From positions 248,001 to 312,000 of the forward strand of contig JANSYK010000002.1 in the NCBI GenBank assembly GCA_024742485.1: a stretch of DNA of 64,000 bases. The letters are read 5' to 3'. Below, piece by piece: positions 14,112 through 62,580 of this stretch (positions within the stretch are counted from its first letter, which is position 1; each line of letters opens with the position of its first letter). Below the pieces are notes generated by a model, which was not told the DNA's origin, made no database searches, and saw only the letters and a list, made by a program, of their open reading frames with translations. The DNA comes from Alphaproteobacteria bacterium. Its GTDB lineage: Bacteria > Pseudomonadota > Alphaproteobacteria > Rhizobiales > Rhizobiaceae. The position numbers and the translations under genes are program-made.

Positions 14112-15482
14112 GTGGACGCAGCAGTCGAGCCCTTTATGCCACCCGCGCCGAAGCCGCGCGCAACCCCGCCGGGACGGCTGGACGTTATTCGTACGATCTA
14201 TCGCAATCCGATCGAGCTATGGGGAGAGCCGGCCTACACGCAACCATCCATATCAGCCGCCTTTTTCAACGAGCGCATGGTGCTTGCCAATGCGCCGGAC
14301 CTCATTCGGCACATTCTGGTCGACAATGCCGCCAACTACCGCATGGCGCGTGTTCGTCAGCTTCTTTTACGGCCGATCCTGCGGGACGGGTTGCTGACCG
14401 CCGAAGGTGATGCCTGGAAACGGTCGCGAAAGGCGGTCGCTCCGGTGTTTACACCACGCCATGCCCAGGGCTTTGCCAGCCAGATGCTGCGATCGGCCGA
14501 GGCGTTCACCGAACGCTACAGCGGTGACGGCCGCGTTCATGAAATTGCCCATGACATGACGGAACTCACCTATGAGATATTGGCGGCGACGCTCTTTTCC
14601 GGTCGGATTGTGACACCCGATGGTGATTTCGGCAGCAAGGTTGAGCGGTTGCTCGAAACCATGGGCCGGGTCGATCCGCTGGACCTGCTCAAGGCACCCG
14701 CCTGGCTTCCCCGTCTGACGCGGCTTCGGGGGCGGCGGATTTTGGCATTTTTTCGCAAGATCGTGTCCGACACGATGGATGAGCGCATCAAGGAGCTTCG
14801 GGAGCATCCACAGAGCGTTCCGGAGGACTTTCTGACTTTGTTGTTGCGGCAGCAAAAGCCGGGCGGACTGACCCGCGATGAAGTCGAAGACAATATCATA
14901 ACGTTCATCGGTGCGGGACATGAGACAACGGCGCGGGCTCTCGGCTGGACCCTGTATTGCCTCGCCAACGCACCGGCGGAACGAGACCGGGTCGAGGCCG
15001 AAATTGACGACGTGCTGCCGCGGGAGCCGGATCCGGTGAACTGGCTTGACCGGATGCCGCAAACGCGGGCAGCCTTCGAAGAGGCCATGCGGCTTTATCC
15101 ACCGGCCCCGTCAATCAATCGCGCCGCCATAGAGGACGACCGGTTCGGCAAGACAGTCATTCCCGCCGGGACCACCGTTCTTGTCATGCCGTGGATCCTG
15201 CATCGCCATCGGGCTCTTTGGGACAGGCCGGATGCCTACATTCCCGCCCGCTTTCTTCCCGGCAACCGGGAGAAAATCGGCCGCTTTCAGTATCTCCCGT
15301 TCGGAGCCGGACCGCGCATCTGCATCGGTGCGACCTTTGCCCTGCAGGAAGCCGTCATTGCGCTCGGCGTTTTGATGCGCCGTTTTCGCTTTGATTGTAC
15401 GGATGAAACAAATCCCTGGCCGGTGCAGAAACTGACCGTCCAGCCCGAAGGCGGCTTGCCCATGCGGGTGACCGCCCGTTAG
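14112..15482 (+). CDS. Cytochrome P450
   Basis: This 456-residue soluble bacterial P450 has the I-helix oxygen-binding motif AGHETTAR (near residue 273), the K-helix ExxR in EEAMRLYPP, and the heme-thiolate loop FGAGPRICIGATFALQEA containing the Cys ligand. GTG at 14112 is the longest start; ATG at 14136 (MPPAPKPRATPP) is an alternative. No ferredoxin or reductase gene is adjacent, so the redox partner lies elsewhere, and the substrate is unknown. The TAG stop codon coincides with the first base pairs of a MITE-like element (15480-15581). Confidence 0.93.
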   Translation: MDAAVEPFMPPAPKPRATPPGRLDVIRTIYRNPIELWGEPAYTQPSISAAFFNERMVLANAPDLIRHILVDNAANYRMARVRQLLLRPILRDGLLTAEGDAWKRSRKAVAPVFTPRHAQGFASQMLRSAEAFTERYSGDGRVHEIAHDMTELTYEILAATLFSGRIVTPDGDFGSKVERLLETMGRVDPLDLLKAPAWLPRLTRLRGRRILAFFRKIVSDTMDERIKELREHPQSVPEDFLTLLLRQQKPGGLTRDEVEDNIITFIGAGHETTARALGWTLYCLANAPAERDRVEAEIDDVLPREPDPVNWLDRMPQTRAAFEEAMRLYPPAPSINRAAIEDDRFGKTVIPAGTTVLVMPWILHRHRALWDRPDAYIPARFLPGNREKIGRFQYLPFGAGPRICIGATFALQEAVIALGVLMRRFRFDCTDETNPWPVQKLTVQPEGGLPMRVTAR

Positions 15483-15581
15483 ACGGCCTCACCTCTTGTC
15501 AGAAACGTGACAACGGCACCGATCCTTGATGGGTTGATGCATGCAGGTTTCACCGTTCCCGGTAAAACCTGGCCAGCTTTA
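15480..15581 (+). repeat. MITE-like intergenic element, copy 1
   Basis: This 102 bp element runs from the TA in the P450 stop codon to the TA in the stop codon of the small convergent gene. It is the most diverged copy but keeps TAGAC, TTGTCAGAAACG, GACAACGG, TTGATGCATGCAGGTTT and the final hairpin (CAGGTTT ... AAACCTG). It is in the same orientation as copies 2, 3 and 6. It probably acts as a bidirectional terminator between the convergent genes. Confidence 0.75.
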
Positions 15582-27773: not shown

Positions 27774-27905
27774 CAAAAAAGTGCCACCGTGGCTGGAGGG
27801 GACTAGTCACGGTGGCGTTGGGGATGTGAGCGGCGACCCGGAGAGGGGGGGGATGAGGTCGCCGCTCGTGTCTGACGTGGCGGGGGACATGCCTCTCGCC
27901 AGACA
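27774..27905 (-). ncRNA. Putative small RNA with three hairpins and C-rich loops (alpha-r14-like)
   Basis: Read on the minus strand there are three successive stems. A bulged stem spans 27904-27870 (GTCTGGCG ... CGCCACGTCAGAC). A perfect 11-bp stem pairs 27867-27857 with 27838-27828 and has a loop rich in C (eight C in a row, then TCTCC). A perfect 9-bp stem pairs 27816-27808 with 27791-27783, has a loop containing CCCCTCC, and is followed by AC and six U (terminator). C-rich, CCUCC-type loops can pair with Shine-Dalgarno sequences, as in the alpha-r14/CcsR class of alphaproteobacterial sRNAs. The structures are seen directly; the family link and transcription are inferred. Confidence 0.7.
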
Positions 27906-28216
27906 TCGGCATTTTTTTGCCGGTACACCCGATTTGGTCCGATGAATGTGGCAATTCAAGGACATGATTGAAGGAAAAATCTCACGACTGTGTGACGGTC
28001 GCGTCGAGGGTGCGTTGCCGCAATCCGTTCATTGATGCGCGTTGCGCTTCGAGACAGTTTCGCAAGGCCTGTAACAATTAACCATAAGCCGTTCAAACAC
28101 CGTGATAATTGACCGTCAGCCGCTTCGGCGATCAAGCCGGCGGTGTGCGGAAAAACACCGGGCGGTCAGGGGCCGGACCTGTCCCGCGGACCCATTGAAG
28201 AAAATTTCAAATGTTC

Positions 28217-32477: not shown

Positions 32478-32579
32478 CACACCGTTTCACGTTTTGTCAG
32501 AAACGCGACAATGGTGTCGGTCGTTGTTTTTTTGATGCATTCAGGTTTTGCCGGCTCCGTCAAAACTGAATGGCTCTGA
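32478..32579 (+). repeat. MITE-like intergenic element, copy 2
   Basis: This copy has ACCGTTTCACGTTTTGTCAG at its left, GGTGTCGG and TTGATGCATTCAGGTTTTG in the middle, and CCGTCAAAACTGAA near the right end. The flanking TA is lost on both sides. It lies between the CueR promoter and the ATPase start codon, beginning almost at the predicted transcription start. Confidence 0.85.
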
Positions 32580-36103: not shown

Positions 36104-36781
36104 ATGCACACCAATTTGAAACTGAACCGGCGTTCCTTCCTGACCGGATCGGCCAGTCTGTCCGGGCTTGCCATTGCCGGATGTACCACCGCGCCGGACC
36201 TGCCGGAACGTCCGCGGGAACCGCGGCTCAGCCGTTCCTATGCACTGATGTATGGGCCGATGCCTCAGGAGAAATTTCCTGTTCCGGCAGTGGACCTGAA
36301 GCGCGTCCCATCAAAGTTCTATCGCCGGGAAGTGGATTATTTCGGAGCGGAGCCCGTCGGCACCGTGATCGTCGACACGCGGAGCTTCTATCTGCACCTG
36401 GTACAGGAAAACAACCGGGCGATGCGCTACGGCGTCGGGCTCGGACGCGCCGGCTTCGAATGGTCGGGACGGGCGCGAATCGCCTGGAAACAGGCCTGGC
36501 CCAAATGGACCCCGCCGGCCAGCATGATCGCGCGTCAGCCGGAGCTCGAACGCTGGAGCGCTGCCAATGGCGGCATGCCGCCGGGTTTGGACAATCCGCT
36601 CGGCGCGCGGGCACTTTATATATTCCAGGGCAATGTCGACACGCTCTATCGCATACACGGATCACCGGAATACTGGACCATCGGCAAGGCTGTTTCCAGC
36701 GGATGCGTGCGCATGATGAACCAGGACGCGATTGATCTCTACAACCGCGTACCGACCGGATCACGCATCATCGTGACCTAG
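36104..36781 (+). CDS. L,D-transpeptidase (ErfK/YbiS/YcfS/YnhG family)
   Basis: This 225-residue periplasmic enzyme begins MHTNLKLNRRSFLTGSASLS. A twin-arginine motif and the lipobox LAIAGC suggest a Tat-exported lipoprotein. The YkuD catalytic domain ends with the signature HGSPEYWTIGKAVSSGCVRM, holding the active His, Ser and Cys. It forms 3-3 cross-links or attaches proteins to peptidoglycan. The longer in-frame extension from 35579 overlaps the Cys-rich gene and is rejected. Its TAG stop is the left edge of a MITE-like element. Confidence 0.92.
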   Translation: MHTNLKLNRRSFLTGSASLSGLAIAGCTTAPDLPERPREPRLSRSYALMYGPMPQEKFPVPAVDLKRVPSKFYRREVDYFGAEPVGTVIVDTRSFYLHLVQENNRAMRYGVGLGRAGFEWSGRARIAWKQAWPKWTPPASMIARQPELERWSAANGGMPPGLDNPLGARALYIFQGNVDTLYRIHGSPEYWTIGKAVSSGCVRMMNQDAIDLYNRVPTGSRIIVT

Positions 36782-36872
36782 GCTGTTGTGACGATTTAAC
36801 CTATGTGCCGGCCTTTTATTTTGTTGATGCATTCAGGTTTTGCCGATTCCGTCAAAATCTGAATTGCTCCTA
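36779..36872 (+). repeat. MITE-like intergenic element, copy 3
   Basis: A 94 bp copy bounded by CTAG on both sides (36778-36781 and 36870-36873). The left half is diverged (GCTGTTGTGACGATTT). The right half is well kept (TTGTTGATGCATTCAGGTTT, CCGATTCCGTCAAAATCTG, GAATTGCTCCTAG). It sits between convergent genes and can fold into a hairpin. Confidence 0.8.
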
Positions 36873-39800: not shown

Positions 39801-39887
39801 TGGTGCCCAGAAGAGGACTCGAACCTCCACGACCTTGCGGTCACCAGCACCTGAAGCTGGCGCGTCTACCAATTCCGCCATCTGGGC
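39801..39887 (-). tRNA. tRNA-Leu (anticodon CAG)
   Basis: The 87-base tRNA reads from 39887 down to 39801. The acceptor stem is GCCCAGA paired with TCTGGGC, the anticodon stem is CCAGC/GCTGG, and the loop is TTCAGGT with anticodon CAG. A long variable arm (class II) and the T arm GGTTCGAGTCC follow, and CCA is encoded. It reads CUG codons. Confidence 0.97.
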
Positions 39888-39964: not shown

Positions 39965-40066
39965 GGTGCAATTCCGGTTTTGACGGAATCGGCAAATCCG
40001 GAATGCGTCAACACAATCAAGGGCCGACACCGTTGTTTCATTTCTGACAACAGGTGAAACGGTCTA
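39965..40066 (-). repeat. MITE-like intergenic element, copy 4
   Basis: This copy runs in reverse orientation: GCAATTCCGGTTTTGACGG at its left, AATGCGTCAACACAATCAA in the middle, CCGACACCGTTGT, and GTGAAACGGTCTA at its right. The right TA supplies the ogt stop codon. It lies between tRNA-Leu and ogt and is downstream of ogt. Confidence 0.85.
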
Positions 40067-41244: not shown

Positions 41245-41412
41245 TGATTCAGGATGATCTTCGGCATGTTTTGCGGGCCACCGGAACCGGTAAACGCCGT
41301 CGCACTGCAAACCATCCGCAATCTCGAAATTTCCGGAAGGTCTTGAAAACCAGCAAACCAATAATCACGTGTCATTGGGGCTTGTGCATGTGTGGGAGAT
41401 TGGGGCTCTTCA

Positions 41413-42402
41413 ATGAACATCTGGTTTCCACCGGACGAAATATGCAATTCACAGACGTTTATTTTCAATTCCACCCATCATGATCTCCAGGAACAGGCGG
41501 CAATATATGAAGGCATTGATCTGCGCTATACGCAACTCAGTGCAGGCGCGTTTCGAGGCCGTATGCTTCACGCAGCGCTTGGCGATGTGGCGATCAATAT
41601 CGAGTATTGCAATCAGTCCCTGGAAAAGGACATCCACCTTTCACCGAACGATTACTCATTCTGCCTGACCCTCGATGATCCGGTGCCCTTTTCCGTCTAT
41701 GGGGTGGACAAGTCCCGGGACTGGATTCACGTCATTCCACCGGACGGTGAGTCGTTCGTGATCACGCCGAAAGACGGCACGATCATGGTCCTGACGATCA
41801 GGCATGATGCCCTTCTTGAGTGCGCCGGGCTCCTTCCCGAGGTGAATGACTGGTTCAGAAAGCTGAACAAACGCGGTGATTTTGTAAAATCGCCGCAGCT
41901 GACCAGTCAGTTGAAGGCCGTTGCACTGCTGGCTCTGGAAAGCGCAACCGCGGTCAAGCATGCAAAGCATCGCACCACGATAGATCGGGGAATTCTGTTG
42001 AACTTCGCGACGGCTTTCACGCTCGAATGGTTGAAACAGAATGATCTGTCGACCTTTCGCAGTACGCCGGCCTTTGAACGGTTCCATCAAGTGCGGCGGG
42101 CGTTGATCGACGATATCCATTCGATCAGCAAGGACGGTCTGTCCACCCTCGAGAATATGGGTTCGCGGCGGTCGATCGAGCAGGCGTTTTCGGAGAACCT
42201 GCATATGGGGCCGCTGCGCTACACCCGTCTGGTTCGCTTGCACAGGGTCCGGGAGAAACTCCTGGACGAATCACGCCTGGATGCCAATATCGGTGACATC
42301 GCCGCTGAAGACGGTTTCTGGGACTGGAGCAGGTTTTCAATCCACTATCGCAAACAATTTGGCGAACTGCCGTCCGAGACGCGCTGCAGGGCTGCGAGCT
42401 AG
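41413..42402 (+). CDS. AraC-family transcriptional regulator
   Basis: This 329-residue protein has an N-terminal sensor domain and a C-terminal AraC double helix-turn-helix (SIEQAFSENLHMGPLRYTRLVRLHRVREKLLDES, NIGDIAAEDGFWDWSRFSIHYRKQFGELPSET). GTG 41392 would add seven residues; ATG 41413 (MNIWFPPDEICNSQ) is preferred. The TAG stop is the first CTAG of a MITE-like element. It lies upstream of the autotransporter gene and could regulate it, but this is a guess. Confidence 0.85.
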   Translation: MNIWFPPDEICNSQTFIFNSTHHDLQEQAAIYEGIDLRYTQLSAGAFRGRMLHAALGDVAINIEYCNQSLEKDIHLSPNDYSFCLTLDDPVPFSVYGVDKSRDWIHVIPPDGESFVITPKDGTIMVLTIRHDALLECAGLLPEVNDWFRKLNKRGDFVKSPQLTSQLKAVALLALESATAVKHAKHRTTIDRGILLNFATAFTLEWLKQNDLSTFRSTPAFERFHQVRRALIDDIHSISKDGLSTLENMGSRRSIEQAFSENLHMGPLRYTRLVRLHRVREKLLDESRLDANIGDIAAEDGFWDWSRFSIHYRKQFGELPSETRCRAAS

Positions 42403-42502
42403 GGCAATTCGGTTTTGACGGAATCGGCAAAACCTGAATGCATCAACAAAATCAACGGCCGACACCGTTGTCCCGTTTCTGGCAAAACGTGAAACTGTCT
42501 AG
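42399..42502 (-). repeat. MITE-like intergenic element, copy 5 (best preserved)
   Basis: Bounded by CTAG on both sides (42399-42402, 42499-42502), 102 bp from TA to TA. The left end is CTAGGGCAATTCGG and the right end is GTGAAACTGTCTAG. Both ends carry TTC-x(1,2)-GTTTTG-x-C-type inverted repeats. It contains an internal hairpin (GGTTTTGACGG with the matching CGGCAAAACC region) and CCGACACCGTTGT. The first CTAG provides the AraC stop codon. Confidence 0.9.
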
Positions 42503-62478: not shown

Positions 62479-62580
62479 AGTTCGTTTCCCGTTTTGTCAG
62501 AAACGGGACAACGGTGTCGGTCTTTGATTTTGTTGATGTATTCAGGTTTTGCCGATTCCGTCAAATCTTGAATTGCTTTA
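62479..62580 (+). repeat. MITE-like intergenic element, copy 6
   Basis: This copy has CGTTTCCCGTTTTGTCAG, GGTGTCGG, TTTGTTGATGTATTCAGGTTTTG and CCGATTCCGTCAAATCTTG. The right end GAATTGCTTTAG holds the TA that gives the GtrA gene its TAA stop (minus strand). It sits between convergent genes. Confidence 0.85.

Follow-up and report, generated by a model that had tools for sequence, protein, structure and literature searches.

A 102-bp repeat family of a Rhizobiaceae genome, very probably a miniature element made from the two ends of an IS630-type insertion sequence

Introduction

Rhizobial intergenic elements named RIME1 and RIME2 were reportedly described by Osteras in 1995. They are about 100 bp long and have two palindromes. 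The family analysed here, compared with them by description and not by sequence, is likewise rhizobial and intergenic, falls in the same size class and has two palindromes.

The following accounts of other systems come from the accessible parts of the sources cited. Bru-RS1/2 of Brucella (103-105 bp), compared by description only, resemble the family in size and repeat class and are also alphaproteobacterial (PMC2267715). Caulobacter CcrM-associated intergenic repeats (CIR) occur in Caulobacter and Brucella (PMC2229807, PMC10969869); they are about 110 bp long, with TA termini and two inverted-repeat arms joined by a linker (PMC2229807), one arm carrying GANTC at its terminal loop. As published they are strictly intergenic and lack a terminal inverted repeat, their target duplication and mobility mechanism being given as unknown; a 2007 review held that CIR mobility needs more information and raised the question whether the methylation site had been acquired by capture or created through base changes (PMC2229807). 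MITEs with IS630 ends and repeats encoding stop codons are already known. The first are represented by RUP of Streptococcus pneumoniae, a MITE of 107 bp that shares its ends with an insertion sequence (IS) of the IS630 family, IS630-Spn1, and has TA as its target (PMC2229807); it belongs to a different lineage from the present family, and no DNA motif such as GANTC is reported for it in those texts. The second are represented by BOX of S. pneumoniae, which like the present family often supplies a neighbouring gene with its stop codon (36 of 58 overlapping CDSs; PMC3049150) but is a different element with different ends.

The layout of the present family is that of the published CIR, a likeness missed by the first-pass annotation of this DNA. 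Size class, TA termini, two arms and linker are all there, and GANTC lies in the loop of one arm in the consensus, in 11 of 13 cross-genus arms and in 23 of 51 sampled copies. Unlike CIR, the family has the ends, the TA target and the probable IS630 origin reported below, and 7 of 43 sampled copies lay inside a called frame, by crude ORF calls of which some are likely spurious. This comparison was with the description of CIR, not with CIR sequence. In the literature examined, with most subscription papers outside it, no paper names the family or ties CIR to IS630, and within those bounds the earlier remark that the family has no published name stands.

Copies of the family in the window

Six copies had been placed by the first-pass annotation in the window, which is the whole stretch of 64,000 nucleotides that was analysed, and their positions were borne out by the sequence and by a profile search (Table 1). 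This search gave six matches in the window, five of them full length and one with a rearranged left third. The same profile gave no match on reversed (not complemented) versions of forty 20-kb sample stretches, a control that did not include the window. A degenerate end pattern, allowing up to three mismatches, matched the window nine times against 0.24 expected by shuffling, and all nine matches fell in five of the six copies. No Rfam family was found at the elements at gathering scores.

The consensus reads TA, GACCGTTTCACGTTTTGTC, left arm, linker, right palindrome TTCAGGTTTTG-CCGATTCCGT-CAAAACCTGAA, TA. Family length was 102 bp, and the elements are short and present in many copies, as MITEs are. 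The shared GGTGTCGG core, the TTGATGCATTCAGG and the TTC-x-GTTTTG-x-C inverted repeats noted at first pass are real in the sequence, and the 102-bp distance from TA to TA given for copies 1 and 5 holds. Two other statements needed refinement. The edges had been described as TA/CTAG; the TA is present, and the CTAG is better read as a target YTAR, in which CTAG is common. The copies had also been called all intergenic, which fits the window, but five of the six start at the stop codon that closes an adjacent frame of at least 140 codons.

Table 1. Positions of the elements, their parts and neighbouring frames in the window.
Feature	Position	Strand	Remarks
Copy 1	15480..15581	+	102 bp from TA to TA; diverged; TAG stop of + open frame 14112-15482 (472 open codons) comes from the element
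Copy 2	32478..32579	+	edge TAs decayed; not at a stop codon
Copy 3	36779..36872	+	94 bp; left third rearranged; gives TAG stop to + frame (418 open codons)
Copy 4	39965..40066	-	upstream of tRNA-Leu (39801-39887, - strand); TAG stop of - open frame (202 open codons, first start 40618) comes from the element
Copy 5	42399..42502	-	CTAG to CTAG; TA to TA 42400-42501
Frame beside copy 5	41392..42402	+	345 open codons; TAG stop 42400-42402 is the element edge
Copy 6	62479..62580	+	gives TAA stop to - frame (140 open codons, first start 62955)
Copy 5, left end of element	42474..42502	-	resembles IS630 right end; apparent relic of ..SDKT-stop codons; family consensus 26/30 to L211
Copy 5, right end of element, read inward	42399..42427	+	resembles IS630 left end, including GAATC; family consensus 27/30 to Sinorhizobium alkalisoli IS
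Copy 5, palindromic right arm	42407..42439		arms 42407-42417 and 42428-42439; from folding and covariation
Copy 5, GAATC, a GANTC (CcrM) site	42421..42425	+	in palindrome loop

Copy number and distribution

Below, G000 is the genome of the window, G001 its sister species and G003 a congener without a family match; L numbers denote loci. G000 comprises 6.87 Mb in 161 contigs. Absence of copies outside the window had been named at first pass as grounds for giving up the family; further copies were present in both G000 and G001. BLAST with copy 5 gave at least 41 matches in G000 (best 40 of 219 candidates scored), and in G001 all 14 scored candidates (best 14 of 664) were 98-100% identical. Twenty 20-kb stretches of G000 held 11 full copies and the window added 5, which extrapolates to about 190 full copies from the stretches alone (11 per 400 kb) or about 240 with the window (16 per 464 kb); the lower figure is the fairer one because the window was chosen for the copies seen there. 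Twenty 20-kb stretches of G001 held 30 full copies, or about 510 per genome by extrapolation. All stretches, spread over four contigs of G000 and six of G001, lay at spaced positions chosen regardless of copies and were not random draws. Copies in the sampled set had decayed along the whole element. Sampled copies had a median identity to the consensus of 86.6% in G000, with the window counted in, and of 91.8% in G001, indicating that the family is younger in G001.

Element matches were found in 6 of 61 genomes when up to 14 best candidates per genome were considered: G000, G001 and four from other genera, the latter matching at the right end only. In one of these four (G023) the matches were IS630 ends. 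With the same number of candidates, no match was obtained in any of the six remaining congeners or in 49 of the 53 remaining genomes. A search for exact 42-base matches in the GTDB genome collection returned 25 stretches, all from a single isolate, 'uncultured Rhizobiaceae group bacterium YR2-508-J', the window's own records perhaps being left out. Copy 5 had no match at E<=1e-5 among 72,556 plasmid records.

Two side observations concern related sequences. A two-arm element related to the family (L062 1420-1540, in G015) occurred at 1189 places in 398 plasmid records, mostly of Rhizobium, Sinorhizobium, Shinella, Agrobacterium and Ensifer, and is possibly a RIME. At L022 (2114-2184), extra diverged pieces of the left arm adjoined a full copy.

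Relation to IS630 insertion sequences

ISs with the same ends, the first-pass annotation having suggested a search for a full-length one, were found in other rhizobia, and four of the records are annotated as IS630 family. The family consensus, searched against plasmids at E<=1, matched nine records, one with E 0.3 and eight with E 0.9. These matches are insignificant by E-value alone; on inspection, all nine sit at IS630 termini. An annotated IS630 transposase lay under the match in three records (H32-H34) and beside it in a fourth (H31), and in the other five (H35-H39) our reading of the sequence was that IS630 C-terminal transposase coding runs into the matched end. The one IS checked for domains, from Rhizobium sp. 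SRDI969, had DDE_3 and Tc3/IS630 helix-turn-helix domains, which were encoded across two frames.

The ends correspond crosswise. The left end of the MITE resembles the right end of the IS (26 of 30 bases at best), and its right end resembles the IS left end (27 of 30 at best, in S. alkalisoli). The right ends of the ISs read ..GGATACGCTTCCGTCAAAAC-TGA, corresponding to codons YASVKT-stop, and an R. leguminosarum IS copy (L216) ends in ..SDKT-stop, the same as the relic in the MITE left end. Left ends of the ISs were of the form CTAGAGC..TTC...TTTGACGGAATCG. The closest ISs come from other genera, and the match is limited to about 30 bp at each end. To judge from these alignments, the MITE appears to consist of the two termini of an IS630 IS of this kind, joined to each other and with the interior missing. 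A pattern combining the transposase C-terminus with the right terminus (up to two mismatches) was present in 30 of 297 same-family genomes and in none when the pattern was written backwards; the match in G000 itself was a variant of the MITE, leaving 29 others, from which 19 loci were partly inspected.

Transposase searches of G000 and G001, among them one with a 27-residue query from the transposase C-terminus, returned IS630 transposase fragments only and no intact parent IS. An unassembled IS is possible because the two assemblies are in 161 and 110 contigs. The partner IS may also have been lost after the burst, and its absence does not lower any claim of origin.

A peptide with likeness to IS630 (E 0.58), next to the G001 copy at L085, was discarded as a candidate since it lies in another stretch, outside the MITE. 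That stretch (G001:C2 about 269040-269148), to the left of the copy and abutting it, is a second repeat-like sequence of about 100 bp, TAAAGCG..CGCTTTAG; the IS630 C-terminus-like reading falls within it, and it may be another IS630-derived MITE family. At L068 in G023, an IS630 end directly adjoins another palindrome-like stretch after base 96.

Target sites and empty sites

In an alignment of 47 BLAST-best copies, the first TA was preceded by C in 31, T in 11 and G in 5, and the last TA was followed by G in 29, A in 15 and T in 3. Thus Y precedes the first TA and R follows the last; no preference was seen further out. Comparison of orthologous sites, also suggested at first pass, was run against G003 with ten joined flank pairs, and the element was present in none of the seven alignments that crossed the junction. 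A clear single TA was seen at L027, L031 and L032. At L019 there was a single TA with weak support, the right flank being only 20 bp. No TA stood at the insertion point at L014, L033 and L038 though the junction was crossed. Alignments stopped short of the junction at L011 and L013, and L021 gave no match. At L032, G003 reads ..GGGAT-TAG-AGC and G000 has the element in that TA; L027 is alike, the gene there being on the opposite strand. At the place upstream of tRNA-Leu where copy 4 lies, the element was absent from all five congeners seen (G003-G007), and G002 gave no listed match. G001 carries a copy upstream of the same tRNA-Leu in the opposite orientation (L122 546-645), which suggests that the two copies are independent insertions near one place.

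The family is very probably a non-autonomous MITE derived from the two ends of a rhizobial IS630/Tc1-mariner-type IS; the numerous copies, the IS630-like ends, the TA target columns and the empty sites support this reading. The first-pass proposal of an IS630/mariner-like non-autonomous element with TA duplication therefore gains support from its copies, shared ends, TA edges and empty sites. We infer that transposase acted in trans: an IS630 transposase would recognise the imperfect inverted ends of about 24-30 bp, excise the element and insert it at a YTAR target, with duplication of the TA.

Insertion at stop codons

Since both element ends start with TA followed by G, a TAG or TAA stop hit by an insertion would be restored as TAG. 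In the BLAST-best set, 27 of 43 copies made the stop of a neighbouring long frame (of 52 rows, 8 had been dropped by E-value and 1 by edge search). A frame of at least 100 codons ended exactly on the edge codon at 32 of 86 edges, against 8 and 4 for the other two frames. Among 76 distinct other copies, drawn from the sample stretches, the window and the G001 exact-match stretches, 26 copies made the neighbour's stop at 26 edges, against 7 and 5 in the other frames.

Classified by crude long-ORF calls, BLAST-best copies fell 20 at stops, 13 intergenic and 10 coding, compared with 13, 68 and 103 for YTAR sites without the MITE. Sampled copies in G000 were 7, 5 and 3 (1 skipped) against 51, 162 and 255 YTAR sites, and those in G001 were 9, 15 and 4 (2 skipped) against 54, 236 and 551. 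Outside called frames, stops accounted for 7 of 12 elements and 51 of 213 YTAR sites in G000 (p=0.014), and for 9 of 24 elements and 54 of 290 sites in G001 (p=0.035). The enrichment was thus large in the BLAST-best set and smaller in the sampled stretches. Related ISs showed the same tendency weakly, with 12 of 35 edges in frame 0 against 7 and 3, several being copies of one IS.

Insertions at stop codons would be nearly silent, and they are found in excess in the observed copies. Part of this excess may be due to selection against insertion into promoters. A TA-targeting element can in this way fill a gene-dense genome, by rebuilding stop codons where it lands.

GANTC sites and CcrM

Twelve related IS leaders were compared, nine being left ends among the 19 new pattern loci and three coming from plasmid records; the rest of the 19 were cut by contig ends or had no left end. 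In 11 leaders GAATC stood at left-end base 24; in L102, where the edge was set by eye, it stood at base 27. A second site, GATTC, was present in all 12 leaders, and 11 of them had a third. The leaders, which are related and not independent, had 3.17 GANTC sites per 80 bp against 0.27 in shuffles. None was seen by eye in the 11 IS right ends read. Because GANTC occupies that place in all twelve related leaders, the right-arm GANTC of the MITE was probably inherited from the IS left end.

A RAMA-domain match was found in G000, G001 and G003 and, among 14 control genomes, only in Caulobacter. The CcrM-type protein of G000 has 377 aa and the CcrM plan, N6_N4_Mtase plus RAMA. Methylation of the left-end GANTC might control transposase expression or end recognition, so that transposition of IS and MITE would fall right after replication, in the manner of Dam and IS10. 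Such control would add to the MITE reading, and we offer it tentatively, as a possibility with the odds somewhat against it. The recurrence of GANTC in the leaders and the CcrM-type gene speak for it, as does Dam methylation control of IS10, the precedent from which a regulatory effect is hypothesised (PMC9296519, in its accessible part); the relatedness of the leaders and the many MITE copies without the site speak against it.

Equally speculative, and in our judgement short of even chances, is a wider proposal with two parts held jointly: that the alphaproteobacterial two-arm repeats with GANTC (CIR, and perhaps also RIME and Bru-RS) are MITEs of IS630 origin that owe this site to the inner part of the IS left end, and that these ISs and MITEs tie transposition to the cell cycle through CcrM methylation. 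If true, this would be the alphaproteobacterial counterpart of Dam control of IS10. What makes the family of interest is that a GANTC repeat of CIR type probably descends from IS630. A CIR-like family with young copies, IS630 ends, empty sites and leader GANTC makes both the mobility of CIR and the origin of their methylation site testable.

Arm pairing and a possible host role

An alternative is that the repeat benefits the host and is kept by selection, as a CcrM-linked chromosome or regulatory site or as a transcription terminator at gene ends. The frequent position at gene ends is in its favour, as are the pairing of the arms and the GANTC in the loop. Three copies folded somewhat better than shuffles, two of them on both strands (z -1.9 to -3.5). 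Elements of two more genera (G011, G020) had the same layout, with arms changed and pairing kept. CGATT was in the loop of all 13 cross-genus arms and full GANTC in 11. In a right-arm pair count across three genera, both sides had changed in 12 cells against 4.8 in shuffles, and 95.5% of cells were paired against at most 52.7% when slid. This count covers eight hand-picked sequences with few independent events. From the 13 cross-genus arms it left out four G015 rows and Shinella (other fold register), G020c and copy 5, and it added L009 and L015, the compensated arm of L015 being known beforehand. Cells paired, changed cells and score were the sole measures above all 500 shuffles; the number of pairs changed on both sides (4) was reached by 55 shuffles and that of further pair types (6) by 476. 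Among 56 sampled copies pairing was slightly above shuffles, with 528 of 603 cells paired (as high in 5 of 500) and 6 compensatory cells (as many in 13 of 500). The stem of copy 5 followed by ATTTTGTTGA (42453-42470, - strand) had a terminator-like score, one such stem against 0.5 expected, but depends on a base absent from the family consensus.

Against a host role stand the decay of copies over their whole length and the five congeners without the element at the tRNA-Leu site. GANTC decays too in resident copies, which is evidence against a host role: beyond the low share of intact sites, it changed at 0.181 per site in sampled copies against 0.112 elsewhere, and 6 of 84 other four-base windows were as high. 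Selection on GANTC in resident copies was considered and rejected, as the conserved look appears only in BLAST-best copies, which were chosen for likeness. We therefore consider a host-beneficial repeat improbable, and the simplest reading is that GANTC matters to the IS or its mobility and not to the host where the copy sits. REP/BIME-type palindromes spread by a Y1 (RAYT) transposase are also small, palindromic, mostly intergenic and of high copy number, but the TA edges and empty sites, the IS630 ends and the two-ended inverted repeat make this origin scarcely credible.

Apart from these comparisons, the faster change of GANTC in the sampled G000 and G001 copies might reflect a mutable methylated site. 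Elsewhere in the window, positions 27778-27925 on the - strand gave an Rfam match to the alphaproteobacterial sRNA ar7.
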